A stretch of 64,000 nucleotides of DNA from Antedon mediterranea. Taxonomy: Eukaryota; Echinodermata; Crinoidea; Comatulida; Antedonidae. How positions within the stretch are numbered: position 1 is the stretch's first letter; each line of letters opens with the position of its first letter. The notes beneath the pieces were generated by a model. The model saw nothing but the letters and a program-made list of their open reading frames with translations, was not told the origin of the DNA and did no database searches. A program made the position numbers and the translations under genes. The stretch is taken from assembly GCF_964355755.1 (NCBI RefSeq), contig NC_092673.1, positions 23,441,001-23,505,000 on the forward strand, written 5' to 3'. This document shows, piece after piece, positions 8,527-56,500 of this stretch.

Positions 8527-9027
8527 TTAAAGAACAGCTTTTACCAAGAACCATATTTTGATCGACAACCTATTAGGGATGTAGGCCTATTGCGAGTTTT
8601 ACGATATCGTCGCGGGCGCTCGTCGTGCTTAGCAAAATCTACCTCATGAGTTTTCACTGTTGTTAACATACAATAGATGGGTACCTGTCATTTTAATTGT
8701 TAATTTGATCTGCATTAGACTTAAATTTGCCAAATGTTTAGTCTGTTATTTTGAAGAAACACATATATATCCAGATAGGCAAAAAGAAACAATAACAAAA
8801 TCAGCATTTAAATTTTTTTACGATTGTTGTGTTTATTAGAAATGTATGCGCTTTACGAAACTTGTCTATTGACACCCACGAAGCACACTTGACGTCACAG
8901 CAATTTACGGCAACGGCTGTACGGCGAGCGCGCGCGGATATATGGTAAATCTCGCAATTGTTATGAAATCATATGTACATCCCTAATATGTTGTCAAAAT
9001 ATGGTTGTCGGTAAAGTTGTCCTTTAA
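8527..9027. mobile_element. non-autonomous DNA element with long inverted repeats flanked by TTAA
   Basis: The left arm (TTAAAGAACAGC..ACCATATTTTGA..TATTAGGGATGTA..TTGCGAG) is mirrored by the right arm (CTCGCAATTG..TACATCCCTAATA..TCAAAATATGGTTGTCGG..TCCTTTAA). The arms are over 80 bp each, with no transposase between them. TTAA at both outer borders fits a piggyBac-type target site. The core is unusually GC-rich (GCGAGCGCGCGCGG). Confidence 0.75.
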
Positions 9028-29996: not shown

Positions 29997-32900
29997 TCAA
30001 TCGCTGGAAGTTGGAGTAGAGTTTAGTTTGTTGCGTGGCACAAAGTTGCGTGTATTTGTGTCGGATTCCGAGTCCTCTACATCCACATCACTTTCATCAT
30101 CGTAACTGACTTCATCTACGGTAGGCATTGAGACTGTTACTGGAAAATCTTGTCCCTCCATTTCAGCCTCTGTGAAGTAAACCATTGGTAAAATTAAATT
30201 TTGATTTGATTTCCAGAACATAAATTTGATCTCATTTGTAATTAATTTGTTAATTGTTAAAATCTTTATGGCATTATATAATAAATAATGTAATCTCTTT
30301 AGTCGATGAGGACTTCACTTATTTTACAAATGATTTTATTTTAGATTAGTTTTTCAAGGACTATCTTTTGCATTTGTTTTGCTGCTATTAAGGCCATAAC
30401 ATCATCTGATGCCAATTCAAAATGTAAATGATATTTGAATGTTTGTAGCATTAATAATCAACTGACTTGTTATTCCAGAATCATGACCTTTTGTGAAATT
30501 GTAAAATAAAATAATTGTAAACCATTATGCCTATAAAAATTAGAAATACAAAAACAAAATTGGTCGATATATTGTGAAGGCTAGGAGGTTTAAGCGCATC
30601 ACAAGTTTGAAATCTCTAAAAAAATAAAACAGAATTGTAACTCTCGGTGTACACAATTGAGAATTCTTATGTTAACATACACAGTGAATATTGTAAGGTC
30701 AAATAATGCAATCATTAATTAGGGTTGTTCAGATCCATGAAGTTATGCTTTGTATCGCAAGCAATGTCATATTATAATTAGTGTCGTAACAGCAAAGTGT
30801 CACCGATTTGGGCGAACATCAGGGGTGGATTGCTATAAAACAGTCTTAACTGATGGGATGGTCTAACTCCCCGATTAAAGATCAGATAGACGGTCTTACT
30901 AAAGCCACCCCTGTTAGACCATTCCTATAAAAAAGGGCGTACTTTGCGCGTAGAATACCAAATAAGGTAATGTTCGTCATGCTTGTTCAATTCACAATCA
31001 TAACAGTACGTACGTTTCTACGCAAGAAAATCTATTCTAGGCATAAGAATAAAATCACAGTTATTATTTGATTTAACACTTAAAAACTCGTTCAATTGGT
31101 TGTCTTTGATAAATAATACGTAAAAGCAACAAAAAGAGAAGTTTCAGACTGTTTTAAGAACCTTCGAGTAGGCTTTAATTTTAAAGGCCGCTTACAGGTT
31201 AGACCGCGGTATAGCAATGGTGTATAAATAAAGACTACTTGCTACGTCACGAATTATAGCCGGCTAAGTGCTAAGACAGCTTATAGCAATCCGCCCCTGG
31301 TATGCAGGATCAAATTTGATAACTTATGTGTTTCATGTGAAACTGTCCCTTAATAGGAGTGTCTACTGAATACATGTGTCCCAAAGGAGGGTATCTACTA
31401 TAAGGGAAAAATAATAAATATATTGTCCCTCAAAAACATGACAAATGACGATTAATAAAATCAGACTTTGAGGAAGCCGGTTTGCAGTTTTAATACAAAC
31501 CTACAAAAATAATGATAATAATAATGAACTTTACTTCACCGTAACGCCCAAAGTGGTGTATTTTTTAAGCTGATTTATTACAAATAGGTAGTTCTAATGT
31601 CAAAATAAAATACTGGGGTAATTTAAAAGCAGTGTTGCCAGAAACATAGGCATTTTTATAGATTTATTAAAAAAACAACATGGTATATTAGTAAAAACAT
31701 TTTATTTTCTTTGATTATCTGATTATAAACTCATTAGTCAGAACAATTCTTAATGTTTTATATAATTCTAGTTGTGTTGTGAGAAAAAAAACCAATATTT
31801 CTAATTATAGATTCTGTAATTCCCAGTTTTAATGTCATTTTCTAAGTTAGATCCTCTTGAAATTTGAATAAATTATCAGATCGTTGTGAATTTTAATATT
31901 TGCAACAGATTTCTCCTCTCCTATTTTGAAGCTCCTCTTTTATTTTTACTTCTTCTATTTGCCAACCTAAGCAGATCCCACATGCCCATCCATCACCACT
32001 TACCTCCCCAAAATCAAACGTCAAATGATATACTCAGGTATGTTAATGCTACGTAACAAATATTGAGGTCCTGATGTGAAATGCATTTTTACCATTTTTA
32101 AATTTAACAGTTTTTGATACCATTTCATTTAAGGTCAGCATGTAAAATATCACATTTTATATCAAATATTGGTTTTAAATCGTTTTTACTGTGATTGTTG
32201 GATTCAGTAGTAATTATTAATTGATTATTAATTATATGATAGTTATTTAATTTCCCTTAGTTATGCATAAAAACAGTTACTAAAATTGAGATATTCTGTT
32301 GATTTGTCATACTATCTTATAAAAATTTTAATTTGTAGATTATTAGCAGGCCTGCCTTATTTGCATTTTCAAAATACCATTTAACAAAGTCATATTCGTA
32401 AGGACTTTCTTCTGTGATTATTTTTATTCATGAAAACCCCATATTTTATTTACAGTTGAACATCCCATAAGCGGCCGCACTTTAAAAAGCCTGTTTGTTC
32501 TTCCTATCTAATTAGTGCATTTGGTACTTCCCGTAAGCGGCCGCAGCCACTTTTTTTTAACTAAAACGAAAAATTCGTATTTAAAATAATGGTATCAACC
32601 AAACTCCATTTTGTAATTTGTTTATACATTAAATGGAACTCAATACAGTACTTGGTTGTTTACACTGCTATAAACAAAAACTGCGTAAAAGTTTTTTTGT
32701 TTAAAATAAGTATACAAGTTTGTACTTCTTCACTATAGAAAATCCGTGAAAAATGGCAAAAACATCAACATTTGGATAATTGACCGTTGTCATGGCAACG
32801 AAGGATAAACATTAAAATGAATGTTGTAGATATGCTTTTTATTCAAGTGCCTATTCATGGTCAAAATTTGAGAGAAATCCATTTTTTTACATCTGCCACC

Positions 32901-35537
32901 AAATCTTTGATTTTTACAGACAAATGGCTATTAAATAATTTTTGCTTTAAATTAAATTTTTTAAGGTAAATAATTTTTTTCGATTTTTTTCAATGTAAAT
33001 AACTATTATGTGAAATTAACAACAACAACAAATTTTTAGGGGGACAATATATCTTTAAGAAGTCTCACCTGGTTCTGGTGTTGGGACTTCAAAGATTACT
33101 CGTCTGGCTGGTACTGGTTCAAGACGTGAAATCATGGCAGCAAGATCTGTGAATTGAGTAGGTATTTGTTTCTGCTTTGTCTGCATCTATTTAAAAAAAA
33201 CTAAATAGGTTAGTTTTATTTTGAATACAAATGATAAATAACAAATCCAGTATAATTTGTTTGTTTCCTTTTGTCTGTTTGTTTTGGAGTCCCTGACACA
33301 AGCATTTGCTTTCTTGGTGATGCCACCATTATTTTGAAATAACTATTATTATTATGATGATTATTCTATCATCATCATCATAATCTTCTCTTCAGAACCT
33401 CATTTTGGGTAGTCACACATGTGACTCCCTCTTTTCGGTACTTCAACTGTCCATGACCAGGGCTACTGGTCTGAAAGATGGACAGGCGAGACGTGAGTAA
33501 TAATCAAAAACAATCAATCAAACAAATGTATTAATTTAACAATTGAAAGATGCAATATCAAGAAATGTAATCATTTTTTTTTGTAGGTTTGTAGCTTAAA
33601 AATGTTTACATTTAAAAAAAATAATATTTTCACTTTTTAACAACAATTGCAACACAGAGATCATAAATAAAAAAACATTTATATACAGTACCTAACCTAA
33701 ATACATGCATAAAAAAACAATTATTTTCGATAAAAAATAAATAAATAAAATCAAAATAATAGGACACCTTATTGGAAACCACTTCTCGCTTCTCTACAGA
33801 ATCTTCGCCAGTAAGTTCCGCTAAGAGTCCACTCTTACCCCAGCCAGACAACACAGTCTGTGCATGCTGATACCCTACATCTTTGATCTCCTCAAAACGA
33901 TTGAAGTGAAGGGTCTTGAATCTGAAACAAAATCAAAATAATGAAGCAAAAAAAAAACAAACAAACAATTGCAAAACAGTAGGACCTCTATTAAGGGACC
34001 CAACAAAGTTTTCCTGAATATAAGTTTGCTTAGTTTAGACACATTTTAAAAATCCCAACAAACTTTTTCATCCTTTAAAATTAATATTAAAAAGCATCTG
34101 GTCTCGGTGTATGGCAGGAAAGCATTCTGTTCTGGTTTATTTCTCTCTACTTCCTTTTGAATCAATTGGAACCCATTTTCCTCCATCTGAATTATGTCGA
34201 TGACATGTTCAGTCAAAGAAGATATATGTTATAAACCACTCTACCATTATCTTTTTTCTATTTATTGAATTATTGTATAGTAACCTCATTGTAATATTTT
34301 TTCCTATTTTCTTAATGGTGGTCTCTGCTTAAAGTCTATTTCTAGAATTATTTTGACCATCATCCACATTTATGTAATACTTAATGATTTATAAAAAAAT
34401 TATTATGTATTACTTGTGGAAATCAAACAACAATAGTTGTATATATAAATAAATTGTATAATTAGCGTTCTAAAATGAAAAAAAAATATGAAAAACTCAC
34501 AAAGAGAAATTGTTCTTTCTGTGTAAAATATTTTAAATTGAGATGGATAATAATGATCATGTATAATGAAAGTAATATGTTATAATGAGGTTTGGAAACA
34601 AAGAGGTTATTTAGACCAAACTTCTTTTGTAAGTGTATTGTAAAATATAAGAAAATTAATGAAGAAAGGAGGTACTGTAATACGGATTTCAAAAATGTTA
34701 CTGATGAAGGATGTTATGATTGTAAGTAATGACATGAAAGATAATATGAATGTGAATAAAAGTGGAGTTTACGCCAAAAAAGAAAAAAAAAAAACAATAA
34801 AAGTGGGCTGTAGTGTTAAATAAAACATTTTCATTTGTTTGATTCATATGAAACTGCCTTCTTAATAGTTTTGTTCCCTGGTCATGAGATAAATTATAGT
34901 GATATTAATGCCTGGTTTTTGCATCACAGAGGGACACTTAAATCTCTATGTCCGATATTAGAAATTATTTTACATACAAAAAATAATATACTCTGACGCT
35001 ATAATAATAGAAAAGAAAATCTTTCTTATTTTCATTAGTGAATTTGTATTTTGATAGGACTGTAACTGTTTGCACAACACAACAAAAATAATGATAATGG
35101 TTGTAGCTATAATAAGAACTGACAGAAAATAATTTTATAGATCAGTGAAACACAAATGGAGTATATAATGATTACAGAAGCAAAAAAGTATTATACACGG
35201 CTGGGTGTTTGAGCCTACACTATAAAACTAGTTGTGATGTGCCCAAATATGGTAGTGATATACCCAAATATGGTAGTGATATGACATCACATTTTTTTTG
35301 TCACATACAATTTGAGAGTGTAGACAAAGCTTAAGATATTATGCCACACAACCGTACATAAAAGTATGTTATAAATGAGCAAAGTGAGATGTACCTCTAT
35401 CTAACTAGTACATTATATTTTTACCTATCAATTGGAGGTCTTATATATTCACACATATCATTCTTCATAAGCTCTTCTTTCTGTTTCATACATGATACAT
35501 AAGCTAGTCTGCTTTGGATGTCACTCATGTCAGGGAC
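29997..35537 (-). CDS. PNPLA6/7: PNPLA6/7 exons 26-29: C-terminal region and stop
   Basis: Exon 26 35537-35425 ([29 protein letters not shown]), exon 27 33921-33768 ([33 protein letters not shown]), exon 28 33186-33069 ([18 protein letters not shown]), exon 29 30169-29997 ([20 protein letters not shown], stop TGA). The acidic tail is typical of the family in composition, not in sequence. Long introns contain MITEs, a 42-bp-arm hairpin and an hAT-like element. Confidence 0.92.
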
Positions 35538-38500
35538 CTAAAACGAGAAAATGAAAAACAAAGAAATGAATTAAGCTTTTCTTGTTAGCTTCAACTCAGA
35601 GCACTAAATACATTTTTTGAGTTTTTTTAATCATTGTTTTTTTTTATTGTCAATTTTATTAATTTTCAATTTTATTATTTTGTCAAGGGTGCAAATTAGC
35701 TTAAAATATGCATCCTCCATGTACATGGATATGTTGGACGTTTATGTAAAAAATATAAAATATTGAATTGAAACAAAACAGATTCAAATTCATTTGTGAC
35801 AAATGCAACACAATGAGGGGGTTGGAAATACTAGTAACTATTATAAAGATATTGACTGCTTGAGGTTAAATATAAGATTTGACATCCCCGAGGGAATGAT
35901 ATTATGTTCGAGGAATATTCCCAAGAACTTAATATCATTCCCGAGGGGATATCTAATCTTATATTTTACCGATATAAAAGGCGATATCTGTTATATTACA
36001 TAGCCAACAACAAGTAGAATATCTGCTGGGCCGGGTAGCTAGGCTAGGCCTCCTTTTTGTATTGTATGTATGTAAACAAGATGCCCAGACACCTTACCTT
36101 TCGAAGAATAATATACAGATAATTACTACGGTAATTAATGATTCCTTGGCAATGAAATATTCACTAGCCTAGGTCGTTTAAATAATAACAGAAGAATTTC
36201 CATCAATAAGCCTACATTAATAATAATATTATCAGGTAGGCCTAGGCCGAATAAATAATAATTCGTCTTCATACTTCGAGCCGAATCACCGGATGTTCAG
36301 TGCGTCGCGCGCGTACCAGTTACTACTGTGAGTATTAACCAATCAAGAAACGGTGTTTCATCACATCTAGGGAGGACTAAAAATAAATGAGGGCGCTATG
36401 TATGCATAGTTTAAATAGTTTAGATGATTAATTTCTTCAAGCAAGTTCCGTGGCGCAGCGCATGAAGCGTTGTCTTGTGATGTAGTGACAATTTCATCGC
36501 GAGTTCAAGACCCAGTAGATGACTTTTGTTTATTTATCGGCAAGCGCGAGTGTTGCCACACGAAATTTACTCAGTCAATATCATCGTTCTCGAGGATATA
36601 TACAATTTACAATCCTTGCAGTGGTAGTCATGTGATGCAGTTTCAACCAATCACGTTCGCGTATTTACATAGGCTATGTAATATAACCTAGTAGTTTGTA
36701 ATGTTAGGTGTTTTGTATAATATTACACTTTTACAGTATTTATATTTGTATACAGTAGTAGAACCTGTCCTATTAAGGGGGCACTTTTTTGGTCCTGTCC
36801 CTTTTATATAGCTTTTACTGTAATTATTCTAATGTGGCAATGGAAGTCAAATCTACTGCAAATGTTACCACAATATGTTTTTAAAAATGTCTTACTTTAA
36901 TTGCCTCTGACCAAGGATTCCAACGTTTCCAGAGAAGCCACCAACCAGATAGTTCATCTCCGTAATTGGTGAGATTGGTCTCATCTACACTGCCGACATC
37001 TACAGCAATCACGGTCTGTGCACCCATCGCCTTCATAATGTCAGCTGAAACAAAGAAAGAAAGTTTTAATAAATCCAAAGACAGATGCTGCAGTATTAAC
37101 TATTTTTTTTAAATTTTTTAATATTTTAGACGATGTAAAAAATATTTAACAGACCCAATAGCGTCCAAGCAAAAAATTACTATAGTAATAAATAAAACAA
37201 ATAAAATAAATTTTTATTCTTATTATTTTAGTCGATGTAAAAAAACATTTAACAGAGCCAATAGTGTCCAAGCAAAAAAATTACTGTAGTAATTTAAAAA
37301 AAAAATGATAACTAACCTAAATAAAACAAATAAAATAAAGTTTTATTCTTATTATTTTAGTCGATGTAAAAAACATTTAACAGAGCCAATAGTGTCCAAG
37401 CAAAAACATTACTGTAGTAATTAATAACAAAAAAAATTGATAACTAACCTAAATAAAACAAATAAAATAAATTTTAATTCTTATTATTTTAGTCGATTTA
37501 AAAAACATTTAACAGAGCCAATAGTGTCCAAGCAAAAAAATTACTATAGTCATTAAAAAAAAAAATGATAACTAACCTAAATAAAACAAATAAAATAAAG
37601 TTTTATTCTTATTATTTTAGTCGATGTAAAAAACATTTAACAGAGCCAATAGTGTCCAAGCAAAAACATTACTGTAGTAATTAATAAAAAAAATGATAAC
37701 TAACCTAAATAAAACAAATAAAATAAAGTTTTATTCTTATTATTTTAGTCGATGTAAAAAACATTTAACAGAGCCAATAGTGTCCAAGCAAAAAAATTAC
37801 TGTAGTAATAAAAAAAAAAAATGATAACTAACCTAAATAAAACAAATAAAATAAAGTTTTATTCTTATTATTTTAGTCGATGTATTGTAAAAAACATTTA
37901 ACAGAGCCAATAGTGTCCAAGCAAAAAAATTACTGGAGTAATTAATAAAAACAAATAAATAAAAAATAAATAGATAAATAAAATAAAACAAAAAAAACTC
38001 CCTTTAATACAATTATTTAGCAAATATAAGCATATTTTTCCCACATCAGTATTACTGTACTTAAACACTGTGTATGCAGGGAAATTATAACAACATGTAC
38101 AAATAAATTGTGCAATTGGAATATTAACCAACTAGGCAATTGAATAGCACTAAGAATGTAAATAAAACAGCTCAGAATTGCCTGTGAATTAATTGCTTCA
38201 TCATGATTTTTATTAACCATTGACTTTATATATATTTAGCTTTTGTAGTCGGATGAAAATATGCTATGATGAACATTGAAAAGTCGTAAACTATAGAATT
38301 TCTACATATGGAAATGATCATCTGATGGTCATCATGCAGATTGTAAATGAAACAAATTATTCATTTCAAAACATGTAGCAGTATTTTAATGAAATAAAAG
38401 CATGCTTAACAAGAATATAAATTTGAATTTGTAGCCAAATGTTTTTGTTACGGCCATGAAGTTTCTATTGGAACACAAAACAATGGGATGGGGTAGAAAC

Positions 38501-41500
38501 GGTTTTCAAATTTGAATTTTTGTATCACAGTCTGATCTCTAAGATAGAAACCAGTAGGTGACATGATGGATTAGAAATGCATTAGGATTGTCTATGTCCA
38601 CACAACAATCTGTAGACAGTGCAAAAAGGTAGAGTAGTGAATTTGAAAGCGTAATCATAAAAAGTAATTAGAGAGGAGGATATACAGGAATAGCAAAGAA
38701 TGTAAGCTTGGCTACAATAGAAAGGAGAAACCAACAATACAATACCCACATAATTATAACAAAGAGACTAAAATTAGTGCTGCAAAACATGCTTATACAA
38801 TTGCACCAATAAAATTGAGGCGAAGATGTACGACCTGGTGACAGGAAGCGATCAATTGATCTCACCTGGTAGATTATTCACATAACCTCCGTCCAAAAGC
38901 AGATGACCGTCTTTTGGGTCACATAACGGTGGCAAGTAGCCAGATAGCGACATACTGGCCCGGACATACCTCCAGAGGGAGCCTGCAAACATAACAGTTG
39001 ATTAGCATAAATAAGACATTTGGTATCTTATGCAAATTAGTCCTCACCTGGCAGATTATTACAATATGCACCGTCGACCAAAAGGTGGCCGTCACGGGGG
39101 TCACACAGTGGCGGCAGGTACACTGCCACCGACATGCTGGCTCGGACATAACGCCAAAGCGAGCCTGAAACAGAACAGGTGATAGGGTGTGAATGTTGTA
39201 ATGCATGTTAGTACATTGTGATAACAAAATCGACTTCAGTTCGAACAATTTGAAAAAAAGGATTTGGAATAATTTACAAAATGTCTTGATTTTAACTTTC
39301 TGTGTGTTAAAGGTAACATTCATAAGATAATGTATTATGTTTATTTTTTAATCACTGTATGATAAGATTATGTTGTTTATTACATATAAATCGAAAGACA
39401 AATTACTGAAAAAATGACAATTCTGTGGGTATTAGTGGCTGGATCTTAACGAAGATACAAAAAAAAAAAGTGAAAGCTAAATCAAACGATAAAGTAAAAG
39501 AGCCAGAAAAGTTAGCAGAGCTTTCAGGCAACACTAGCCCTTCATTAGTGCAAGTATACATATTATTATTACATATGACCTCTGTTTCATAAAATTCAAA
39601 CAAATGTTAAAATAATACAAAAAAAATAGAATGAAACAATTTATCAGATCTGCTTTATAAAATGTGTAATAATGCTAACATAAGCAAAACAACAATAAGC
39701 TTGACATTGGCAAATTACTAAAGTTGTAATTGTTTAACAAACATCATTACTAAAACAGTGTTTTCAAAGTATTGCGCTTTCGTCACACTCAAGAAAAATT
39801 CTTAATTTTGGATTAAATTGACGTGTTAGTTGCTATGGTGACACAATAAATTCAAATACAAACAATAAAAATTAAACAAATATTGTTTCTGTAAGTATCT
39901 AGTAATAGTATGTACAATCAGTATTACGTATAATTTGAACTTAAAAGTTAAAAAAAATGCCATGCTAAAGTGGTTTATCAGAAAAGGACTTTGAAGAAAA
40001 ATAGATATTAATTAAATCAGACTTTGAATAGGTTATTTTGTAGTTTCAATCAAGTTAATCCCTTCCATAAAATAAAAAAAATGTTTTGTCACATAAAATG
40101 ACAAAATAAATGGTAAAATTCAACCAAAAACCCATTGCTGGCAGCCAATTTGACTATTTTTTGCTTTAAATTACAGTTTTTCCAGGTAAATTTATTCAAT
40201 ATTATGTGACACTAAAATGGCATATTAAAAAAAAAAATTTTTAACAATTATCTTTTCAGGTACACCCTTTATTAAAGGGACACTTTCACATGCAATGAGC
40301 AATATGTTTTAATTAATACAGCCTACTAAGGCTACACTTTTTAATAAGGGGACAAATATTGTTGTGGTCCCTTTAATAAGGATTATACTGTATTTATGTC
40401 TAGTTATGCATGGAAATAGTAGTAGTACCTATACACTCAGAATATCACTAATATAAACTGCGTTAAAAGTTAAAAGGTGATCTGGAAGTTATTACTGTCC
40501 CTCAATATAGAGTTTAATACATATTTACAATTGCTCATTTGATGTGTCCCAAAGCAAGGGTTGTATACTGCTTGACTTTGTCACAATATAATTGTTTTAC
40601 ATGCCACATGCCACCAGCCAAACCACAAAGCTACTGATTCTCCTAATCTGCAATCTGAGTTACCATGAACGCAATTTTAATCAAGTAATCTGTCGCTGGC
40701 TTTATAACTATAATTCTATTATTTTTTGTAGCACATTTTCTACATACAGACTCATACAGTTGATAATGTTATTGTGCATCTCATAGATAAAACTAATTAG
40801 TTATATAGCTACAAATTTTCATTAATTTGTTGAAAAGATTTCACATGAACATTTAGTTGCCATGGTGAAAAAATACATTAAACTGCAATAAAGATCAATA
40901 TTGTTTCTATATATAAGTATTTAGTACATCCCAATGCAGCATAATTTAACCTTAAAAGTAATAATAATAATAATATCAGTTATAAAGACAACATGAAAAG
41001 AAAAAACACTATTGAAATATGCGAGTTTTTAGGAGAGATTTAAATTGAAAAGGGGATGAAATGTAACGGATGGAACAAGGAAGTTGGTTCCAGATCTCAT
41101 GTGCTTGAGTAGAACCCCCCTCCCCCTTAAGACACCTCTATTCAGCAGGTAACCCAATTAAGAACGCAATTTAAAATGAAACAAACAAGTGAAAATATAT
41201 GTTTCAACAATCGCTATTCAGGGGATATTCCAATTCAGGGGATATCCCAATTTAGGGATATCCCAATTCAGGGGATATCCCAATTCAGGGGATATCCCAA
41301 TTCAGGGGATATCCCAATTCAGAGGATATCCTAATTCAGGGGACAATTCATTGGGTCCTGAAGTAAACATTTTACTGTATAGTGTAAGTTTTAAAAAAAT
41401 GACTGGAAACCAACCTGATGTATGGATCCTCATTTGTGAGACACTGATATCTGTTGTGATCGTAAAGTATGGAATCCACAAGTCTTCTATTTGTTTTTCT

Positions 41501-44500
41501 GCAAACACATCTTTGATAGTTCTATTAAATCCCCGTCCTAATAGAGAAAAAAAAACAACATTGATATTTTGAGTAACAGATTCATTTTCTATTCATTTAT
41601 TTTATTCAGCCAGTAAAAACAATACAAAAAATACAATACAAAGATGAATTTCATTGTAGGCCAAGGACGCCAAAATTAAACCAAACAGCGGGCCTGGCAG
41701 TCTAAAACCCTTTTCACATCTGCATAAATTGTTAAAACTTGTGACAACTTGTAACCAGGTTTGATCTCCCGATTTATTACACGTTTTTATACAAGAATTC
41801 GCGAACCCTGAGAAATCTCGGAAGAAGAATTATCATCAAATGCTCATTTTGATGAAGCAGTCTAAACACCTGCATTTTAAAATGTCATAATTTTAATAAT
41901 CTTTCAATCCAGTTTTTCAGGTCTGGAGCACAAATAAAAACATACCTGAAAACATAGCTGTGAATGGATATGTAAGATCAGCCAATTGCTTCCAGAATGA
42001 GGTCATGACCTTTGACCAGTTCTTTGCTCTAACCTCCATCTTCTGCCAGCTTAGGTCCTCACAGTACAATGCACCATTAAAAGCACCGATACTGACTCCT
42101 CCTACCATGTCAATTGGGATTCCATATTCTTGCAGACCTCGTATGATGCCAATTTGCGAGGCACCTCTGTAACAATGAAGCATGTGGACTTTGTTTTATA
42201 ACATTGCAAAATATTTTAAATAAATCATGCGCTAAAAAAATATCTTGAAAATCGTGTAAAGAAACATAAAAATCAAGTAATAATAAACAGCAGAACCCCT
42301 ATTGGAACAGATTAAAACCCCAAAAAAAGTGTTCCCGGAGTAGGGATTGGCCATAGTGTTAAAACATATATTTCTCCTTGTCCATTTGACAGGAGTGTCC
42401 GCTTAATAGGGGTGCTCATTGAATAGGGGTGTCCTAAAGGAGTGGTTCTACTATACTACTTAGTATTTTCAGTCCAAGAGCATTAGTTCATAAGTATAGG
42501 CAGACCTGCAAATTTTTTGTAACAAGCTGATTTTTTCAGAAAAAGTTCAGAACTCCAACTCCATCTTAAATTTCTCGGAGAGCACAAGGAGGATTTTTTA
42601 AGACTTTTAGTATGATGTTCCAATCATAGTTCTGGACCTTTCCTGAAAAAATCAGCTTGGTATGAAAAATTTGGGGTCAAACCCTAAATGGTCTTGCTCT
42701 CTATTTGCCACTAATAAAACATATACTTACTTAGCCCCACCACCACCAAGCACCAATCCTATTGAGGTACCAGTTAGAAACCGTGCCACTCTTGAGAAAT
42801 CTGAATGACGATCTGGTGGTTTTTGAAAAAGTTTGTCATAAGTTTCTCGTTGCTTTGCCGGAGACTTTTTTGAGAACATCCGCCTAGGACATCGGATGTG
42901 ATGATGAGTAACGCACCAGCCGCGAGCATTGAGCCACTCAGCCGTTCTCGTCGGCGGCTTGTATCTTGAATCTTTTTCTCGGTGGAGCAACATCAGTTCT
43001 TTTTGAGCACGAACTGCAAGGTTTTCTAATTGTTCTTCCATCTCACTGATATCATTTGGATCTTTATCTGCTAATGCCACAATTAAAATGCAATCAGCCT
43101 ATTACAATAAAAAAAGAATATAACACATTACCAATAGTACATATTTCACATATTAATGTTATAATTATTATTATTTATTAATAATAATATAATCAAGAAA
43201 ATAAACAATGGAACATTAGAACACCAGCATATATATATTATATTTTACATATTTTAAATAAAGAAAATTTAAATCATGATTATAACATTAAAAAATACCA
43301 TATACTAAATACACAATTCTAAAACATCCATATTTAAACTAAACAAAGCAATGAGATGACTAAATAAATAATTGGACAATATAACAATTAATAAATAAAG
43401 CAATTAAATTAATGCAAATCTTTCATGTATATTTGTTGCTTTTTTCTTTCCCCTGTCTATAATGATGTACAGCTATTTTTTTTAACTTGGTGATTAAAAC
43501 CATATGGGCTTATTTGTATTCTACAGACACAATAATATTGTTCAAATTTTATTATAATAAAATGTATAGGATAAATCTATACAGTATATTCTCTCACCTG
43601 ACGAATACACCTTTGTGTCCATGGGGTCATCTTATAATCAGCCTGATAGAGGACAATACGATGAAAGTCTTCCTGTAAACCTAACCAACTTGTTAACCGG
43701 AACTCATGTATACTGTCAATGTTGTGAAATAAAGTCTTAATTAAATAATAATAATCGGATTCCATCAAAGCTAAATTGTTTATCTAACTCAGTAGGAGGA
43801 GCTAATTACTTAATTAGACCTCAATTAGCATTTCCTGTCACCAACTTTGGTGCTTAGTGCACATAATTATTATTGTTTTGTATTCACTTGATCTTGAAAA
43901 TGGTTCTATGATGGTACCGAAACGTCGATTTCTCTTTTTGTCATTAAATTTTATATTGAAATTAAATAATAACACAATTATTTAAGGCTTAATAGTACAG
44001 TAATTATGAAATCAGATGGGCAGAGTCTTTGAAATAAATAAATAAAACGTCAATGTGTGCATTTCTAGTAAAAGGACACCTTTCATACGGAGGAAAATCT
44101 GGAATAGAAACCTACTTTGTAACACCTCGAAGGACACACTAATAAAGGGACACTTTTCTGTAAAATGAATGACACAAGGGGAAACATATGTTTGACCCCT
44201 ACTCTGTGGTCATCCTTATAAAGGGAATACTTTTTAGGTTCCGAAAGTGTCCCTTAATTGGCTTTCCACTGTAATTAATGCTTTTAGCATCTCTTGTAAA
44301 CAGTCACCCAAAAAGTTGTTGACAATGAATTCAATTACAGTATCAAAATTGATCGGCTTTTTTTTTCATTGGGAAAACCATAAAATATCGGTTAAAGCTC
44401 AATAAACTCAAAGGCACTCAGTCCACTTAGTTTCAACTGTATACTCTTTCTTGTTGCAATTAAGGGTTTATTAAAAATATGTTACCTATCAAGAGCAGCA

Positions 44501-47500
44501 CTACCAAGTGTCTTTAATATATAGTCACTGGTTAATCGAAGACATGGACCTGCAAGTAATGATAATCGATCAATTTATTATATTATTCCAGATATTATCA
44601 AAATAATGAATGTTTATGAGTTGAAATGGAAGCATAATGTATAGTATAATGCATAATGTATTTGAGGTGTTGCGTAGCGGTAGACGTTTACGAATCCATC
44701 ATCTCTCATCAAAATAGATTTTGTATCAGCTTTTATCCAGCTGCCATTCGAGCACTAAATGCTTGTCAGTATACAGTACGAGAGTGATGTGACATTTTGT
44801 AATTGTTTTTTTTTAGTTTTTCATCTGTTTTTGTATATCTCAGAGCAAACATAATATCTATGTATATTTTATATGCAGATTACAATAAATGGAAGTCATT
44901 TTCCACTTATGAATGAATTAATATTTGTATGCGGAAAATTGTTTTATTCAACAGTAGAACAGTCATGCTTTCAATGAATGAAAATATTCTCACCATTCAA
45001 TGATTTCAAACCATTCATTATTTGTTTTAACACACCTACTTCTATAGTAAAACTATTCAATTAGGCCATTTTCATCTTGAAACTGATATTAAATGATAGG
45101 CCATGTAAACATTTGGTGCTTAGATTTTGGCCGTGGTACAGTGCAGTGGCCTTTTACAGTTAGGTTTCTCATTGCATAATAGTCATGTTGCACAACAATT
45201 TTAATTTTTTTACAGAAAGCTGCAACAGTAGGCCTACCTTCACTTTTTTTAAAAGGAACGTACAGCATGTGATACCAAATCATCAAATGGTACGTTTTCA
45301 CTCAGGGACAGGAATATATTTTTGTGTTGTATTTTTTTACAGGCTGTTAGTCTACAATTACTATTAAATTTTTCGTTTTTATACATTTAGGAAAATTGCA
45401 AATGATAACCATAAGCGAATTCATTCACTATCCTTCTTAAAGATGGCAATCCCATTCACAAAACAAACATATACTCAAGATACTCTACATAAACAAAGTC
45501 TTATTACAAGTCTTTGGGAGTGAACTTGTAGTTTTGTCATTAGAAAAAATCCTGACATATTGACAGGATTTGAACACAGGACCCTTGGATTGGTAGCCAA
45601 GCATCATAACCACCAGACCACAACTCCACTCCACTTCATGGATAATTGTTCATAAATCATAACTTACCTATTGCACAAAGAGAATGGCAGAGTTCTTGAG
45701 CAAAGTTTGAGAGAGGTACTTGGTCTGAGGCAGCTATTATTGCACACGTTGACAAGTTATCAACATTTGGGGGACTACCACGGACACCGACATTTTGGGA
45801 AATTGCTGAAGGAATATAATAAATAATATTTTCTATGTAAATTGGAATTGTAACACCAAATGACTGAAAATTAAAAATATAATATTTAAATTATTTCATT
45901 ATTATATTTCAACAGTTTGACTCTGAAAATCTGTGGGTGTGCGGTCATCCACAAAAATGTTAACACAACACAAAATGTGCTCAGGCGAGTAATTATTTAT
46001 TTAAGTTTTTAAGTGTTTACAACAAGACCAGTCAATTCTGGCTTATGAGTGTACAAATATATTATATAGCAATAGACAGATAAAAACAAAATAACAAGTT
46101 TTAATGTTAAAATAGTTGACTAAAGTGACAGTGGTAAATCAAATAACTATGCATTGCAGCTAAAAGTTGCACAGTGATAACCAATTAAATAGTGTTTAAC
46201 ACAATTTATTTTGAATGAATTGAATGCTATTTTTTATTTTCCATAAGAAACAGGCCTCTAAAAATGTTGATATTACTCAGAAATACAATTGAATATGAAA
46301 GCTATAACAGTCAGGGGAAAATGGCAAAAGGTTTTCTACTTTCTAGAATTTTTATCAGATAATCTATATTGTTTTGACAACTCTTGTAACATGATCATAT
46401 ATATTACGTCTGTAGCAATAAAATATATTGTTTACCTCTGAGTGGATTTGATACATTTTTTTCTTTCACCTGTCCAACAAGTTTCTGACCAAGTATCTCA
46501 ATGAGTCTGGTGACAACCTGAGGGAACTTCCTCTTTATAAGAGTCAGCATACCAGATGGTAACATTGCCAGCTCAGTATCTCTAAAAAACGCAATGTCAA
46601 TAAGCCTGTATTTCTTCACCTAATTGTTCTTGACATGCTATCCCTTAAACCAATACTTTCCGTTTCTTGTTTCTTAAGCTCTTTCTGCACCATCAAAAAA
46701 AGTGTGATGTGCCTAAATATGGTAGCGCTATGACATCATCATATCCATATATAGGCGCATCAAATTTTTTGTTTGTCACATATAATTTAATAGTGTAGAT
46801 AGAGCTTTAATCAGTCAGGGTCACCTTTTAAGTAAACCAGCCCTTTTGAAACCAGACTATCCTGGCCTATAGTAAAGATGTATTGTCCCGTTTAAAAAAT
46901 AATTCTTACACATTTTTTTGTTAAATATGCCATTTTAATGTCACCTAATAGTTATCCACTTTGACCAAAAATTGGATTAAAAAAAATGTTTTTACCTAAA
47001 AAACTGTAATTTAAAGCAATAAATAGTCAAATTGGCTTCCAGCCAATGGGGTTTTGGTTGAATTTTAACATTAATTTTGTCTGGTTTTTTTTTATGAAAG
47101 TGATTAACTTTATTAAAAGAAAAAAATTAATCTATTCAAAGTCTGATTTTATTAATCTTTATTTTTCATGTTTTTGGGGGACAATACATATTTAAATTGA
47201 TTCTGACTGATTGAGATAATGTATACGTTACCTAATAGCATGTACTGTAGTAATTCTTTCTTTCTGTGTAAGAACTTCAATCATGCCAACCATCTCGCCA
47301 CGACCAAATTCTCCTAGCAATTCTTTCTTACCATTTGGTAGTGTGATAACAGACCTCAAACGTCCATTCAATACAATGTATGTGCTGTCACCCTCGTTAC
47401 TTTGCCTGCACACAAAAAAAACCCCAGAAAAACAAACAATAAGTCACCTCTGTCTAACCAGGATAAAGTACCTTAACAGCAATTTTGCTGTTTTGGGATT

Positions 47501-50500
47501 GGCCAAAGTTCAAAATGTCAACTTCAAATTTATGTAACTAAAAAGAGATTGGTACGTTATTTCACAATTTCTAAACTGAAGATTTTTTGTTGTTTACAAA
47601 AACTACTATTCAACATCTGACTGAATCTTGTTTTTTATAGGTGACACAAAACACTGGTCAACAAATCTTGTTCAATGTAAAGATGACATCATTTCACAAT
47701 ATTTGTTCAACATTTTTAAAATGAATTTCCTTAAACAACTGCACTGAAAACGTCATTCTATTTTTGACATATCTCCCACAATGCATAACATAAACAAACA
47801 TAATTTCTAATGTGAGGTCAACAAATCTTGTTCAATGTAAAGATGACATAATTTTAAGATATTTGTTCAAAATATTAAAAAATGGATTCCCTTAAACAAC
47901 TGTATTGAAAACATTTTTGACATACCTCCCACAATGCGTCAGGACATAATGAATACATTCTAATGTGAGAATTAACCATGTTTCACTGACCTATACAGGG
48001 CTTTACCGGCTTCTATCATCATCCAATCAAGAGCAAAGTCAGTCTGCCGAACAAATGATGAGAGCTTTCTAACCACAAAATGACCAATCTTTAAAACAAC
48101 TTCAGGTTTATTCCTCATAATACTGTAATAGGAGATATTTTGAATCAAAGATAAAGTAATGCATGACAAGTTAACCAATCAAATGGCTCAGATGTGTTTT
48201 AAAAACTTGATAAAATAGAAGTGGAAGAATTGTAGTGGAGCTGTAGCTTGGTGGTTAATGTGCTTGCCTTCCCAATTCCAAGGTCCATGGTTCAATCCTG
48301 AGCTAGTGCCAGGGTTGTAACTAACGACTCTTTCAACTCCACATCGTATACCTCAAATGAGACTTATTATAAAATAGTTTATCCATCCTGTAATTGGCGA
48401 GTTTGTGCTCGCTGTTGGATACGTATGCGATAGACATATGAATTTAAAAAAAAAAAGTTTGTCCTCGCATTCGTAAAACCAGGTTCAGTTTTTTCTCACT
48501 GATTGTACTTAAACTATAAACAAAAAATAATGTCATACCTGTAAAAACTGGTCTTGCTAATTACGACAACTCTAGAATAAATAAGTGCTTTAACAGTAAA
48601 GAAAGCAGGCTCTCCAGTAAGGACAGCTAACTCTCCAATGAATTCACCTGGATGTGCTTTAAATACACCCTTCTCTTCAGCACTGTCCACCGTCTTCTGC
48701 ATCATGCCAAGTTTACCACTGACGATGAAAAATAAGCTGGCATCCTACACAAAAATTAATACAATATATTATCATTAATAATAATATCCTGGATTTATAT
48801 AGCACCTAATGTTGTGAAATCTCTAAGAGTTGAACTTTATCACCTCGGTCAATTTTTGCATCAAACACGTATGGAAACATACTCCCATAATGCAGCTAGT
48901 AATCAGCACAAAATTGTGTCTTGATTTAACAGGGGATCAATTTTTACACCTGGGTGGAGAGAGGCAAAGGTAAGTATCTTGCCTAAGGATACGAGCAATG
49001 CGGTGAGAGTTGGATTCGAACCACAGTCTCATGATCAGTAGTCCAACATCCAACACACTGCGCCACACACCCTTACATATATATAGATACATTTGTTAAT
49101 TATCCAATTTAGAAATTTACTAAACATTCCCATAAAACATTATTTTTTTACATACATATGCAAATAATATGTTAAATAAAGTCCCACTTTTTGGACACCA
49201 TTATTCAGTAGACACATTTATTAGGGGAATATTTTTGTGGGCTTGACGGTTCTACCCTTTTCGGGTCCTAATATATGGTGATCAAATTATAAAAATTTAA
49301 GATGCAAAAAGTTAGAAAGTAAAATTGATTCCAATTGAAACTTGTGTTGGGTAAGCCATTACAAAACAATTATTGCAACATACATCTGATGCATTTGTTT
49401 TGCAGACAAATGAAACAGAGTATTCTCACCTGACCATGTGTGATCGTATATTCAAACGAAAATTACATGGACTTAACAAAGCGAATGCATTACCTGATCA
49501 CCTTCGTGGGTTAAAATGCTACCAGCGTCAACATGAGCTAACTGAAGATGTCCATCCAGATAGGCCTCATCCTGACAATAAATAAACAAAAATTACAACA
49601 ACAAATGTTACAGTATTATTTATAATTATTTAAATCTGTAGTTTATGGTCAAATTACATTAATATATACTCTCTATGGTACAATTTATTTGAATAAATAG
49701 GAAAGAAAATATGCTTAAAATGATTATGTTTCACAAAGTTCTGACTTACATCACAAAGTTCTGACTTACCTCACAAAGTTCTGACTTACCTCACAAAATT
49801 CTGACTTACCTAACAAATTTCTGACTTACCTCACAAAGTTCTGACTTACCTCACACATTTCTGACTTACATACCCAAAGTTCTGAATTACATCACAACAT
49901 TTTAACTTGCATCACAAATTTCTGACTTACATAACAAAGTTCTGACTTTACCTTACAAAGTTCTGACTTATCTCACAAAAGTCTGACTTACATCACAAAG
50001 TTCTGACTTACCTTACAAAGTTCTGACATAATCTCACAAAGGTCTGACCTTCATCACAAAGTTCTGACTTATACATAACCCAAGTTATGATTTACAGTAC
50101 ATAACCCAAGGTATGACATGCAATACAAAGTTCTAACTTACCTAACCAAAGTTCTGACTTACATAACCAAACATTCTAACTTGCATCACAAATTTCTGAT
50201 TTACACCACAAAGTCATGACTTACATTACATAGTTCTGATATACTATACAATGTTGTGACTTACATCAAAACCAAATAGTTTTGTTAGATCAGTCTGTGC
50301 CAAGGCCAATATATCATCATCTGAATACATGCTATCACCAGACTTGGTTCGAGATCTTGTAGTTGTTCCTAGTTCCTCACTTATCTGTGTTGCTAACTTT
50401 CTTGGTTTCTCTAGTGGTTTTCCATCAGCATCCTATAAATAAAAAAACAAACATCATCTTTAAGCTCTGTCTACACTATCAAACTTTATGTGACAAAAAA

Positions 50501-53500
50501 ATGTGCTGTACATATATATGGACATGATGATGTCATATCACTACCATATTTAAGCATATCACTACCATATTTGGGCATAAAGTTTAATAGTGTAGACAAA
50601 GCTTTAAGCTCTGTCTACTAGTGTGACAAAAGAGTGTGATGTGCCTAATGGTAGTGGTATGCCCAAATATGACATCATCATGTCCATATAGGGGCAAATA
50701 ACATTCTTTTGTCACATGAAGTTTGAGCTTTAGATTGCTTAAGTAATTCAGTGAAATCCTTTTCTTCGGACACCCCTATTAAGGGGACATTTTCCTGTGA
50801 AACAAACATTGAGAAGTATATCATTATACACTTTGGCCGACCCCTATTCAGGGGGACACCCCTTGGACACCCCTTGGACACCCCTTTTTTGTGTATGAAA
50901 GATGTCCACTTATTAACAAGGGTTCTTCTGTATTGAAAAGGTTTTCAATTTAAAGTATCATTTTTCTTTTATAATATTTATAATGAATCAACTGCAAAAT
51001 ATATTATTAAATATTAACATTCTGATCTCTATCAGTGAAGTTCATTGGAAAAAAAAACCAAAATTTGTTAAATTCTTGTTGGTTATAAGGCAACACATTA
51101 AGTTTTTGCAAAGATATTTATCGACTAAATAAATCTAACTGGCCTTTACAAAAGTCATTCAATTCACATTTTTCAAAGAAATTTACTAATTTAAAACGAA
51201 ATTTGAGTTGATTGATTGTGTTTGCTAAAGTTATTAGAGCACCATCTCAAATAAACTATCTCACACTCACTAATGTATATCACATTTGTAATTGTCTGTG
51301 TGGGATTTATTTTTAATTATTCGAACGAAATAAAATGGTCGTGATAATATCAAATGATTAAGTGTGGTCTAAATATTGAGGTATTATAAATTGGCTAGAT
51401 TGGTAACTTCAATGTTATTGCAGTTGAAAAAGTGATTCACTGTGGAGAGGGTGCACAGAATTTGGCTGCAGCAATCAGCCAATCAGATACAGCCAGTCAC
51501 GCCCACTACACAGTCACGCACCACTACACCTGTATTGAATGTATCAACGAAAGAGCGAATTCCTTGCACGTACAAATGTACATATCAAGAAATTATCCAA
51601 TTCATTGCTATTAACAATATAATTGATTCAATAAAAATTGTGCTGTGCTTTAACAATAATATTGTTACATATAAGACATATTGTGTGTTATATATATGAA
51701 GTATATATATTGTAGGATTATACTCTTTACACTATTTTTGAAGAAATATAAATCAACCATTTTGAAAGCCCTATCCCTGTGTTTATCACTTTGCTGTCGG
51801 TCTATCCTTACCCTAATATACCTCAATGGGTCTAAACCATATCTATGTCATTGCGGTAAGGATTTTTGACAACAGACATACTGCTGAAATTGAATGATGT
51901 CCAATAAACTTTGTTTTTAAAAAACTGAAATTTTTAAACTTTGGTTTAATAATATTCTTCTAGTCTATGTTTTTTTTATTACAAAATTGTCATACCTTGG
52001 GTACATCTTCAAGATTTAGTACCCTAGCCCTACCAGCCGCTGCTTCAAAATCTGATGGACTCATACTCATTCTATTGTGACCAAGTTCAAATGCAGTTGC
52101 TCTTCTGATCAATTTTGATGTGGAGGCACCCTCTGTAAAAACAAAACACAAATAAAACAATGTAATTAAATCCGAGGGAATATAGAATTAAAGACTTATG
52201 AACACTCCAGTAAAGTTATTCTACACTCTGAATAAATGCCCTATTCCCATGAAAGTTGATAGTCTCAACAAATATGAGCCTTACACATAATTAACGAGTA
52301 CAAAGGTATTGGAGTATATCCATTTTGATTATACACACAAAAAAGAATTAACCAGACACATAGAAGTTATTAGGGAGCTTTTGTATTGACCTAGTACCAA
52401 ATGTTAAATCAACTTGTGTATACAGGGACCTTTTTCTTCCTTGACACCGAATTCTATGACCAGACAACCACCATTAATGCATAGGTCATTAGTCCTAGGT
52501 TGTAGCTAATCAGAAACTCTCTATTAATTATTTAAGAACTTACGGGATGATGTTCGTTTCACACGACCTTCATTTTCACTATCTGAAGTTGTACTCATGT
52601 ATCTTTCTGTTAAAAAAAACCAAAAAGATAATCATTATTTATATACTACAGAATATTTTACATACAAAAACAAAATACAACAAATCGTCAATTTGTTATG
52701 TACAAAATTTGGCTCATCACCAAAAAAGTTCATCTTTGTTTTTAATCCAGAGATAGATGGTGAAAAACAACAATGTGGAAATATTTGTATTCTCTTCATA
52801 TACCCTACTCTTTAGGGAAAACCTCCTTTATTAAAGACTTCACGCACAATACAATTACATAGCATTTGATTATTGACCAATAGATAGGCCTAACATTCTT
52901 GTTTTGGCCATGTTCAATTTGGCCATTTTTTTATTTTTTTCTTTAATTTGAAAGAATTTACAATTTGGGGGAAAAAAACCCACTTTTCGCTAGTTCTGAC
53001 CTTAGAGTGAGCGTATTTGACCTTAGCATGATTGTATAAATTTTTGATTAAGGTTTACTGTCTGTTCACAGGATTATATAAAGCTTTTAAATTCTGGAAA
53101 CACCCAATAATAAGTTTACCTCCTCCCTTAATGAGTAACTCTCGTATTTTCTCCTCATCTTGATAATCTATGACTCTTGTAACTTTTTCACTGCTACTGG
53201 AAGAGCTTGCTAGTGATTGGATGCTTATTTTCTTACTAGGGCTAACTTTTGGTGATAGTTGATGGATAGATAGTTTTGGATCGCTTGTGTCTTCCTATAT
53301 ACAAAGTGGGATAATAAAACTCATTATTCACATACTTTTCTTTTGTTTAGTTTCTTTTTCATTATCGAACCAAATGCTACATTTTATCTTAATGTGCTAC
53401 TCAGTAAAAGGGGAACGCTGGCTCTTAGAATTTAGTTCCTTTTTGTGTGATCCTGCTACTTTTACTTCGTGGTTCTTCTGTTGTTGTGTTTGTGATGTTT

Positions 53501-56500
53501 TGGCAATAAAATAAATAAGAATAAAACCATTGCAACATCAATCATAAGCAAACAAAAGATATGACTATCCAATTTACAGGCAAGGAAGAAACCTACGCAA
53601 TTTCAACTACTTTCCTAAGCGAATTTTTTTGAAAAAACCAAGGATTATATATCACCATTTAAGTCAAATTGATAAATCGACCTCTGGTCCGAGAAAAGAA
53701 ACAAACAATACAAAGTTAGTTAAAATCAAAATCGTATGGCATTTAATGAACAGGCAAACTGCCTTAAAATACTGACTTGTTTCGATTTTGATCTTAACTC
53801 GAAAGTTTGGTATCATACATGATTTATCTGACAAAGTTAGTTATTTTTAAATTTACCTTATTGATTAACTCATGTGATAAACCTAGATAGTTATGAAGGG
53901 TCTGGAATGTTACTCTCTGAAGACGCACCATGATCATCTGAACGACTCGAACCATAGACTCAGGATATCGTTCAAAAACATTACTGAACGCAATGGCTGG
54001 AAGACGAAGGACCACGGTGTCTTCTGCAGCTCTTGCCGATACAGTTTTATAAGGTGCAAGATGACCCTAGTAAAATTTATAAATGAAAATAAATGTTTGA
54101 ATTAAGCTCTATCTACACTATTAAACTTTATGTGACAAAAAAATGTGATGTGCCCATAAATGGACATGATGATGTCATATCACTACCATATTTAAGCAAT
54201 ATCACTACCATATTTGGGCACATCATAATTTTTATCAAACTAATTTGATAGTGTAGAAAGAGATTTATATGCATGTTGAAAGTAAAACAAAATTGATTCA
54301 ATATCATTGTACTGTATAAATATATTATATAAATATTGAAACCCAAACAATGCAATGGAGAATTATTTTTTACCTCCGCCAAGGAGGTATATGTAATAGG
54401 TCGTGTGTTTGTTTGTTAGCAGGATTACTCAAAAAGTAATTACAAGATCTTTACTAAAAATGAATACACATATAGATATGTGATCAAGGACCATTCCATT
54501 AAATTTTGGGACCATGGTCCTAATTCTGGACCACTTTTTAGTATACTTTTCAGACCTGCTAGTGTTAAAAGATAGGACAGAATTTTTCAAAAGCTGGCGA
54601 GCAGTCTTAAAGTAACAAGTAAACTGAAATTGCATTTTCTCGAGAACTACTTGTCCAAAAAAGAGGCAAGAGTTATATTTGTGATTTTTAATTTTAAAAC
54701 ATAATTTGATTCAATGTGCACGTTTTTTGATGCGAGTAGTTTAAAAACCCTATTTCTTTTCAAACACAATCGTTTGATTTTCGCATTGCTGTTCTATTGT
54801 TAGTCAACTGAAGCTAATTGTTAATTGAAAGGCTTGTTACATAACCATTGCACCAAACTCGCATACATGCTTGTAGTGAAATTAGCCTAAATAAGAAACA
54901 GCATTAAGACACACACAAATATATATATATATATATATATTTTTTCCCGGAGAAATCTTATGTAGGAGAATTTTACAGTAGGCGGAGGTATGCACTCTCG
55001 GAGTGGCTTTCTAGTTTTTAGTAATTTAATTGATTTTTTAAATTTCCAGATGACTTTATATTAAGTTTAAAATTTATGTTTAAAAACTTAATGTATGGTT
55101 GATTAATCGGAAATTGAAAACAATTTCAGTATAGTGGATCATCCAATGTGAAACAGTTTCTTATTCAAGTGTATACACCAATCAGTGTTCATTAGCATCT
55201 TTGCGCAAATAAAAATAAATCTATTTACACATTTAATCAAGAAAATGTACCACCACATGAATGTGTGGGTGTAGCATTAATTGTATTGTAATTTTTTTTT
55301 TTTAATGACCATAATAAATACTCAAAATGTGTTATTCAGACAACAATGAACTTGCTTTGATGTACAAAAGATGAGTGGGTAACTATTTATAAAAGTGTCA
55401 ACATATTTGACAGTGATAATAAATTGTACATACTGTTAAAACATCGAGTATACTGAGCAGGCTGTGAACACTGTCACCCGTTGTGACCTGTTTTACTTCA
55501 AACTCTTCACCGCTCTATATAATGATAATAATAACATTTTTATTTTAAAACAGAGGCTCGTTCACAACATAATGTGTTCTTCCACAAGGCCGTATGAAAT
55601 AAATAAAACTACTATATCAAGAGTAAAAACAAATTTAAACAAAAATGAGATTACTCTATGTTTTTGATTTAACTTATTAATCATATTATATTATACTGAA
55701 TATGAACATGAGGTAAAATTAGGGGTCAGAAGATTATACTGATACTAGGTTTATCGCAAATAGAGTGCACTGCGCATGATGGGAAGGAAATGAGGGCACA
55801 CACGTTTACGAGATTTGTTTACATTTTGCCACCATGCATTGTGCAATGACGTTCCTCGTAATAACGAGTTATTTGCGATAAACCTTATGTATTAAAAGTC
55901 TGAATTTAGCTTAAAATAAGGGTGTAATTTTCATTGAAATTAATGATAGAGAAAGCATATGCATGAATAAAAATGAATTCCAATAGAAATTACATGATGA
56001 TTAAACTACGTTTAGGGAGCTTTAAATGAATGAAAAAAGAACATACTGGCTCTGTGATGTATACTTTAAGTCGTCCACTCTGAACTACATAGATACTGTC
56101 ATCACTCTGTCCCCTCCGGAATAAGGAAGCTCCGGCCGGAATAAACTTGGATTCAACTGACCGACATAACTCAAGAAATAAAGGTTTTTCAAAATGTCCA
56201 AATACTCTTTAAAAAAGAATAACAAATAAATACTGTACATGATCTATTAGTATTAACACAAAAGAAGCAAATTGTTTCAAATTAATTAATTAAATTTCAG
56301 TATATCACTGGGCGGTTTCGAATTAATGTTCATTGCCTAATGTGTTTATATATATAAATTAAAAGTATTTCTTCGGAGATCCCGCCTATAAAAAATACTG
56401 AAAGATGAGGGCGTATCAATTTGATCTCCGGTGCGCATGCGTACAACTGAGGACTAGTGCTGTTTCGCACTTTATTAGTACAATTCTAATGATTTTGATA

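Follow-up and report, generated by a model that had tools for sequence, protein, structure and literature searches.

Neighbouring exons can be kept mutually exclusive by the spacing of their splice signals, as described for alpha-tropomyosin, where the branch point lies too near the upstream 5′ splice site (Smith and Nadal-Ginard, 1989, via PMC6692369). In mammalian extracts the branch site has to lie at least about 50 nt from the 5′ splice site, and a test intron with 46 nt in between was left unspliced (PMC6692369). This limit holds for those extracts, and shorter introns may be spliced in other animals. A duplicated exon of a metabolic enzyme, OGDH exons 4a and 4b, is likewise held exclusive by a donor-to-branch-point distance below about 50 nt; in that case calcium control is changed, and distant branch points lie in a longer intron (PMC7969005). 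Muscle myosin contains MXE cluster-3, a mutually exclusive cluster described in molluscs and in an annelid (PMC3912159). For the family dealt with here, the catalytic centre of human PNPLA6 is formed by Ser1014 and Asp1134, PNPLA6/NTE counts among the human disease genes and is what organophosphates target in the delayed neuropathy they induce, and Drosophila swiss cheese (sws) has two isoforms, both of 1425 residues (PMC9025805).

We have analysed a duplicated catalytic-Asp exon (exons 24a and 24b) in a PNPLA6/7 gene of the crinoid Antedon mediterranea. Alpha-tropomyosin is an unrelated gene whose mechanism was tested experimentally, whereas exclusion in PNPLA6/7 is proposed from the spacing. 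Unlike OGDH, the exchanged segment of PNPLA6/7 contains a catalytic residue, and the whole spacer between the two exons measures 65 nt. Myosin cluster-3 and the PNPLA6/7 pair have in common adjacent homologous exons in the same frame, a short spacer and changes near the active site, but myosin has many described clusters (PMC3912159) and the spacer of the candidate pair in this genome is 84 nt long, against 65.

The genome comprises 354 Mb in 18 contigs, and the window, that is, the whole stretch of 64,000 nucleotides under study, corresponds to C4:23441001-23505000. Spliced alignment of the gene's own exon peptides located a gene of the neuropathy target esterase type on the minus strand (Table 1); its first exon and some small exons are unconfirmed. 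Exon numbers 23, 24a, 24b and 25 are those of an earlier sequence-only reading of this DNA, and the numbering of the gene model differs from them. The regulatory half of the protein showed three cNMP_binding domains in Pfam comparisons (54.0 bits for one domain and 120.5 bits for two; cut-off 27.5), followed by NTE_Ploop (93.4 bits; cut-off 27) before the patatin domain. In a context of 405 residues, Patatin scored 103.3 bits with exon 24b and 102.4 bits with exon 24a (cut-off 27.7), and the motifs of the Ser-Asp catalytic pair were present as GVSIG and DGG or DGA. Judged by this domain content (Patatin, NTE_Ploop and three cyclic-nucleotide-binding domains), the gene is a member of the PNPLA6/7 family. 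The window also contains tandem repeats. The intron that separates exon 24b from exon 25 includes 5.9 copies of a 128-nt unit with 94% matches (37189-37956); the intron 3′ of exon 23 holds 7.6 copies of the 17-nt unit ATTCAGGGGATATCCCA (41216-41343); and at 49731-50268 a 20-nt unit is present in about 26 copies (75% matches), which extend to the 3′ side of exon 50265-50432.

Table 1. Features of the PNPLA6/7 locus, listed in the direction of transcription (positions within the window).
Feature	Position	Strand	Description
PNPLA6/7 (neuropathy target esterase type) gene	30000..60120, approximate	(-)	Spliced alignment of own exon peptides
Exon with nucleophile motif GVSIG	41946..42166	(-)	Spliced alignment; Pfam Patatin match inside the exon
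Exon 23	41415..41537	(-)	Ends TCA G, then GTTGGT; phase 1
Exon 24a	39048..39164	(-)	Upstream copy in the gene; variant catalytic-Asp exon, SVAV ... VDGAYC
Spacer 24a-24b	38983..39047	(-)	65 nt
Exon 24b	38866..38982	(-)	Family-typical catalytic-Asp exon, SLSG ... LDGGYV
Exon 25	36896..37044	(-)	Entered in phase 1; spliced alignment

The sequence-only reading had described two same-phase exons of 117 nt around a 65-nt intron, and this anatomy was confirmed: both exons are in phase 1 at both ends and are bounded by GT-AG sites. In a repeat search the pair aligned with 72% DNA identity over 128 nt. The two exons share 31 of 38 residues, as first counted, or 32 of 39 when the glycine codon shared with exon 23 is included, and both keep the catalytic Asp (DG[G/A] motif) and the NNLP segment. 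Exons 23 and 25 match each of them in phase, and also each other when exon 24 is omitted. A search of the genome with the 24a peptide at E values up to 10 returned two matches, 24a and 24b themselves, and the joined 23+24b+25 sequence, searched to E 1, matched at four places within this gene and nowhere else; neither further copies of 24a nor retrocopies showing a spliced form were thus found, although divergent ones may escape such searches. When the 26 exon peptides were compared with the minus-strand frames, no other pair like 24a/24b was found in the gene; besides 24a and 24b, there were two weak hits among the exons of the cyclic-nucleotide domains and a further hit at E 0.049.

Adjacent homologous exons of equal length and the same phase, with intact frames and splice sites and with signs of constraint, characterize mutually exclusive pairs, and all of these features were found here. 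The reading that best accounts for them is that 24a and 24b are probably spliced in a mutually exclusive manner. The patatin domain would receive its 39-residue stretch with the catalytic Asp from either exon, so two phospholipase isoforms would arise; ahead of the Asp the loop would read SLSG with 24b and SVAV with 24a, and at the Asp itself LDGGYV and VDGAYC, respectively. Both exons would be transcribed, and their splicing would be regulated by cell type.

Constraint on the two copies was apparent from the pattern of their differences. They differ at 35 of 117 nucleotides (9, 4 and 22 at codon positions 1, 2 and 3), and 16 of the 23 changed codons are synonymous, which upholds the earlier statement that most changes are silent and that both exons look selected. 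Ten of the 15 fourfold sites differ, corresponding to a Jukes-Cantor distance of about 1.6. With 32 of 39 residues kept in spite of these silent changes, 24a/24b is an ancient tandem exon duplication of which both copies look selected. In 20,000 simulated neutral copies of 24b carrying 35 changes, none showed seven or fewer residue changes (mean 20.8, minimum 12), and 31% contained no stop. The test weakens when only part of the changes is assigned to the 24a branch: seven or fewer residue changes were then obtained in 33%, 3.2% and 0.06% of 5,000 runs with 12, 16 and 20 changes, respectively, so that with 12 changes neutrality is not rejected.

The fit of each exon to the family profile was compared in a spliced context of 212 residues, where Patatin scored 105.1 bits with 24b and 104.2 bits with 24a. 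When seven residues of 24b were changed at random, the nine resulting versions scored between 86 and 101.1 bits, all of them below 24a. The bacterial RssA model gave 107.6 (24b) and 104.8 (24a), both under its cut-off of 272. Because 24a scores close to 24b and above the random versions, it looks like a working alternative patatin segment. These scores bear on the rival that fares best, namely that 24a is a decaying or already defunct duplicate, seldom or never included in transcripts. Such a copy would agree with the family-typical residues being those of 24b and with the weakness of the branch test if few changes fell on 24a, but 24a contains no stop, its splice sites are intact, its profile score exceeds those of all the random versions, and its residues are largely kept even though two thirds of the fourfold sites have changed. 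We consider this reading unlikely.

The second rival is joint inclusion of 24a and 24b, either constitutive or as an optional cassette, which would add 39 residues, double the Asp segment and yield an altered or inactive enzyme. As noted in the sequence-only reading, a form with both exons stays in frame, 117 being a multiple of three; for the same reason, a frame shift would remove neither double inclusion nor double skipping. The strong donors and ordinary acceptors of both exons would also allow joint inclusion. It would, however, require splicing of the 65-nt spacer as an intron, and the tandem Asp segments would be expected to misfit a single patatin fold, for which Pfam then gives two stretches. 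The length of the spacer was set against introns counted in the same genome. Among 143 introns, which come from few gene families and leave out both the 65-nt spacer and the 84-nt myosin spacer, none was of 65 nt or less; the shortest measured 83 nt, and the 95% upper bound on the share of such short introns was 2.1%. The count includes 19 introns of the PNPLA6/7 gene (minimum 408 nt), taken between well-supported exons, so that others, including introns of 51 and 108 nt beside dubious exons, were left out. It also includes 65 supported introns of seven myosin genes (minimum 113 nt), a set from which the support filter dropped 21 of 86, among them a 32-nt one taken for an alignment artefact, and in which a few of those kept may be misplaced. 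The remaining 59 are kinesin introns, obtained from 134 rows as estimates based on match ends; three were read out, with lengths of 83 (the minimum), 91 (estimated 88) and 140 nt. Five kinesin matches carry 33-69 extra nucleotides, which leaves room for a hidden short intron; by eye none was found in two of them, two others have no internal stop, and the fifth is the match at C9:4157282. With the spacer shorter than every one of the introns counted, joint inclusion appears slightly less probable still than a dead 24a.

Mutually exclusive splicing would find its mechanism in the same spacer. The sequence-only reading had pointed to a branchpoint-like motif 42-45 nt from the donor. The best branch-point candidate is a CTAAT with its A at intron nucleotide 46 and 19 nt after it, but it is not unique, as a second CTAAT places its A at nucleotide 11. 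The motif by itself is thus poor evidence, and more weight falls on the spacer being just 65 nt long. If about 15 nt are reserved between branch point and 3′ splice site, at most about 50 nt are left in the spacer between the 5′ splice site and the branch point, which equals or falls short of the distance needed in mammalian extracts. U1 and U2 would then lack the room to assemble together and joining of 24a to 24b would be hindered, so that transcripts would read 23-24a-25 or 23-24b-25. An RNA hairpin in the spacer was considered and rejected, its folding being ordinary (z = 0.32; 120 of 200 shuffles folded at least as well).

Splice sites were scored with a matrix built from 84 introns of the same genome, a reference set to which the 24b donor itself belongs. 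The donors of 24a and 24b fell at the 81st and 87th percentiles and their acceptors at the 46th and 36th, respectively. The exon 23 donor (CAG|GTTGGT) had been called weak; at the 38th percentile of 84 donors it is not unusually so. The strength of these sites bears on a third rival, that splicing is not strictly exclusive and yields 23-24a-25 and 23-24b-25 alongside an in-frame 23-25 form; the protein from this last form would lack the catalytic Asp and act as a catalytically dead regulator. Exons 23 and 25 are phase-compatible without exon 24, which would permit this, but with strong donors and ordinary acceptors on both copies double skipping is unlikely as a main form, and we regard this mixture as quite improbable. 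That the pair is an assembly artefact can practically be dismissed, given the 35 differences in 117 nt, a spacer that resembles neither flank and a window without N.

Under mutually exclusive splicing, the choice between 24a and 24b would be set by cell-specific factors acting on two similar acceptors. The acceptor tracts of 24a (39165-39184) and 24b (38983-39002) agree at 17 of 19 aligned bases with one gap. None of the 168 comparisons of either tract with other introns scored so high, and the same score was reached by 133 of 3,486 pairs among the other introns. Both acceptors contain TGTTNTGTTT, which also occurs in the last 25 nt of two of the 84 other introns. This element is possibly the site of a common regulator; because common descent explains the sharing too, we take it as a lead only. 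A single Rbfox-like GCATG was found, 73 nt downstream of 24b, in a scan of 300 nt upstream of 24a, the spacer and 300 nt downstream of 24b.

A muscle myosin heavy chain gene on contig C1 of the same genome (L004, about 8540-8830) offers a parallel. It contains two adjacent homologous exons separated by the 84-nt spacer, covering the stretch up to NDNSSRF, which we take to be switch-1; the closest solved structure is 3i5f. As this candidate pair stands at the place of cluster-3, short-spacer anatomy with homologous exons occurs here in a kind of gene known for such splicing.

As for the enzyme, the swapped segment, by its motif, holds the Asp corresponding to Asp1134 of human PNPLA6. The only solved structure covering the segment is that of bacterial PlpD, and in the alignment to it the differences lie mostly ahead of the Asp and at its immediate neighbours. 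Among patatins, DGA is accepted in place of DGG, and the profile scores obtained here agree. Since the family profile accommodates the DGA exon no less readily than the DGG exon, catalysis may survive the swap. Some functional difference between the isoforms seems likely, and a changed substrate or inhibitor preference is plausible. A selected natural alternative to the Asp segment would show which residues adjacent to the active site can vary while the fold is kept, and the isoform pair would be ready material on what sets substrate and inhibitor preference. If the reading is true, this would be a clear instance of splicing in which the exon around a catalytic residue is replaced yet the residue itself is retained.

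Mutually exclusive exons are a known kind of arrangement; at this site of PNPLA6/7 we found no description of them. Literature on PNPLA6, NTE, patatin, sws or CG2212 (presumably the number of sws) was searched together with exclusive or alternative splicing, and the pair was not described in the titles and abstract openings among the matches listed, a body of text that mostly excludes subscription literature. Fly SWS, as we assume, reads SIAG... at this place and shares with 24a the A, the R and the departure from DGG. The sws gene is orthologous, and its equal-length isoforms are what an equal-length exon swap would give; PMC9025805 does not locate the difference between them. Should the other fly isoform carry DGG, the pair would be of ancient origin and would already be annotated in the fly. 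We offer as a tentative proposal, with the odds rather against it, that the swap of the Asp exon may be an ancient NTE/SWS switch, common to many protostomes, between an SLSG/DGG loop and an SVA/RDG/DG[A,C] loop, which would alter substrate range, rate or organophosphate sensitivity and be chosen by tissue, the fly SWS isoforms being its insect form.

A minor observation concerns the myosins of this genome. Spread across 5.5 Mb of contig C3 (C3:19614624-25122537), one myosin-head exon (Pfam positions about 342-408) was matched 19 times, 18 on the minus and one on the plus strand, and another (about 563-641) twelve times, which points to a myosin gene that has expanded or forms a large array.
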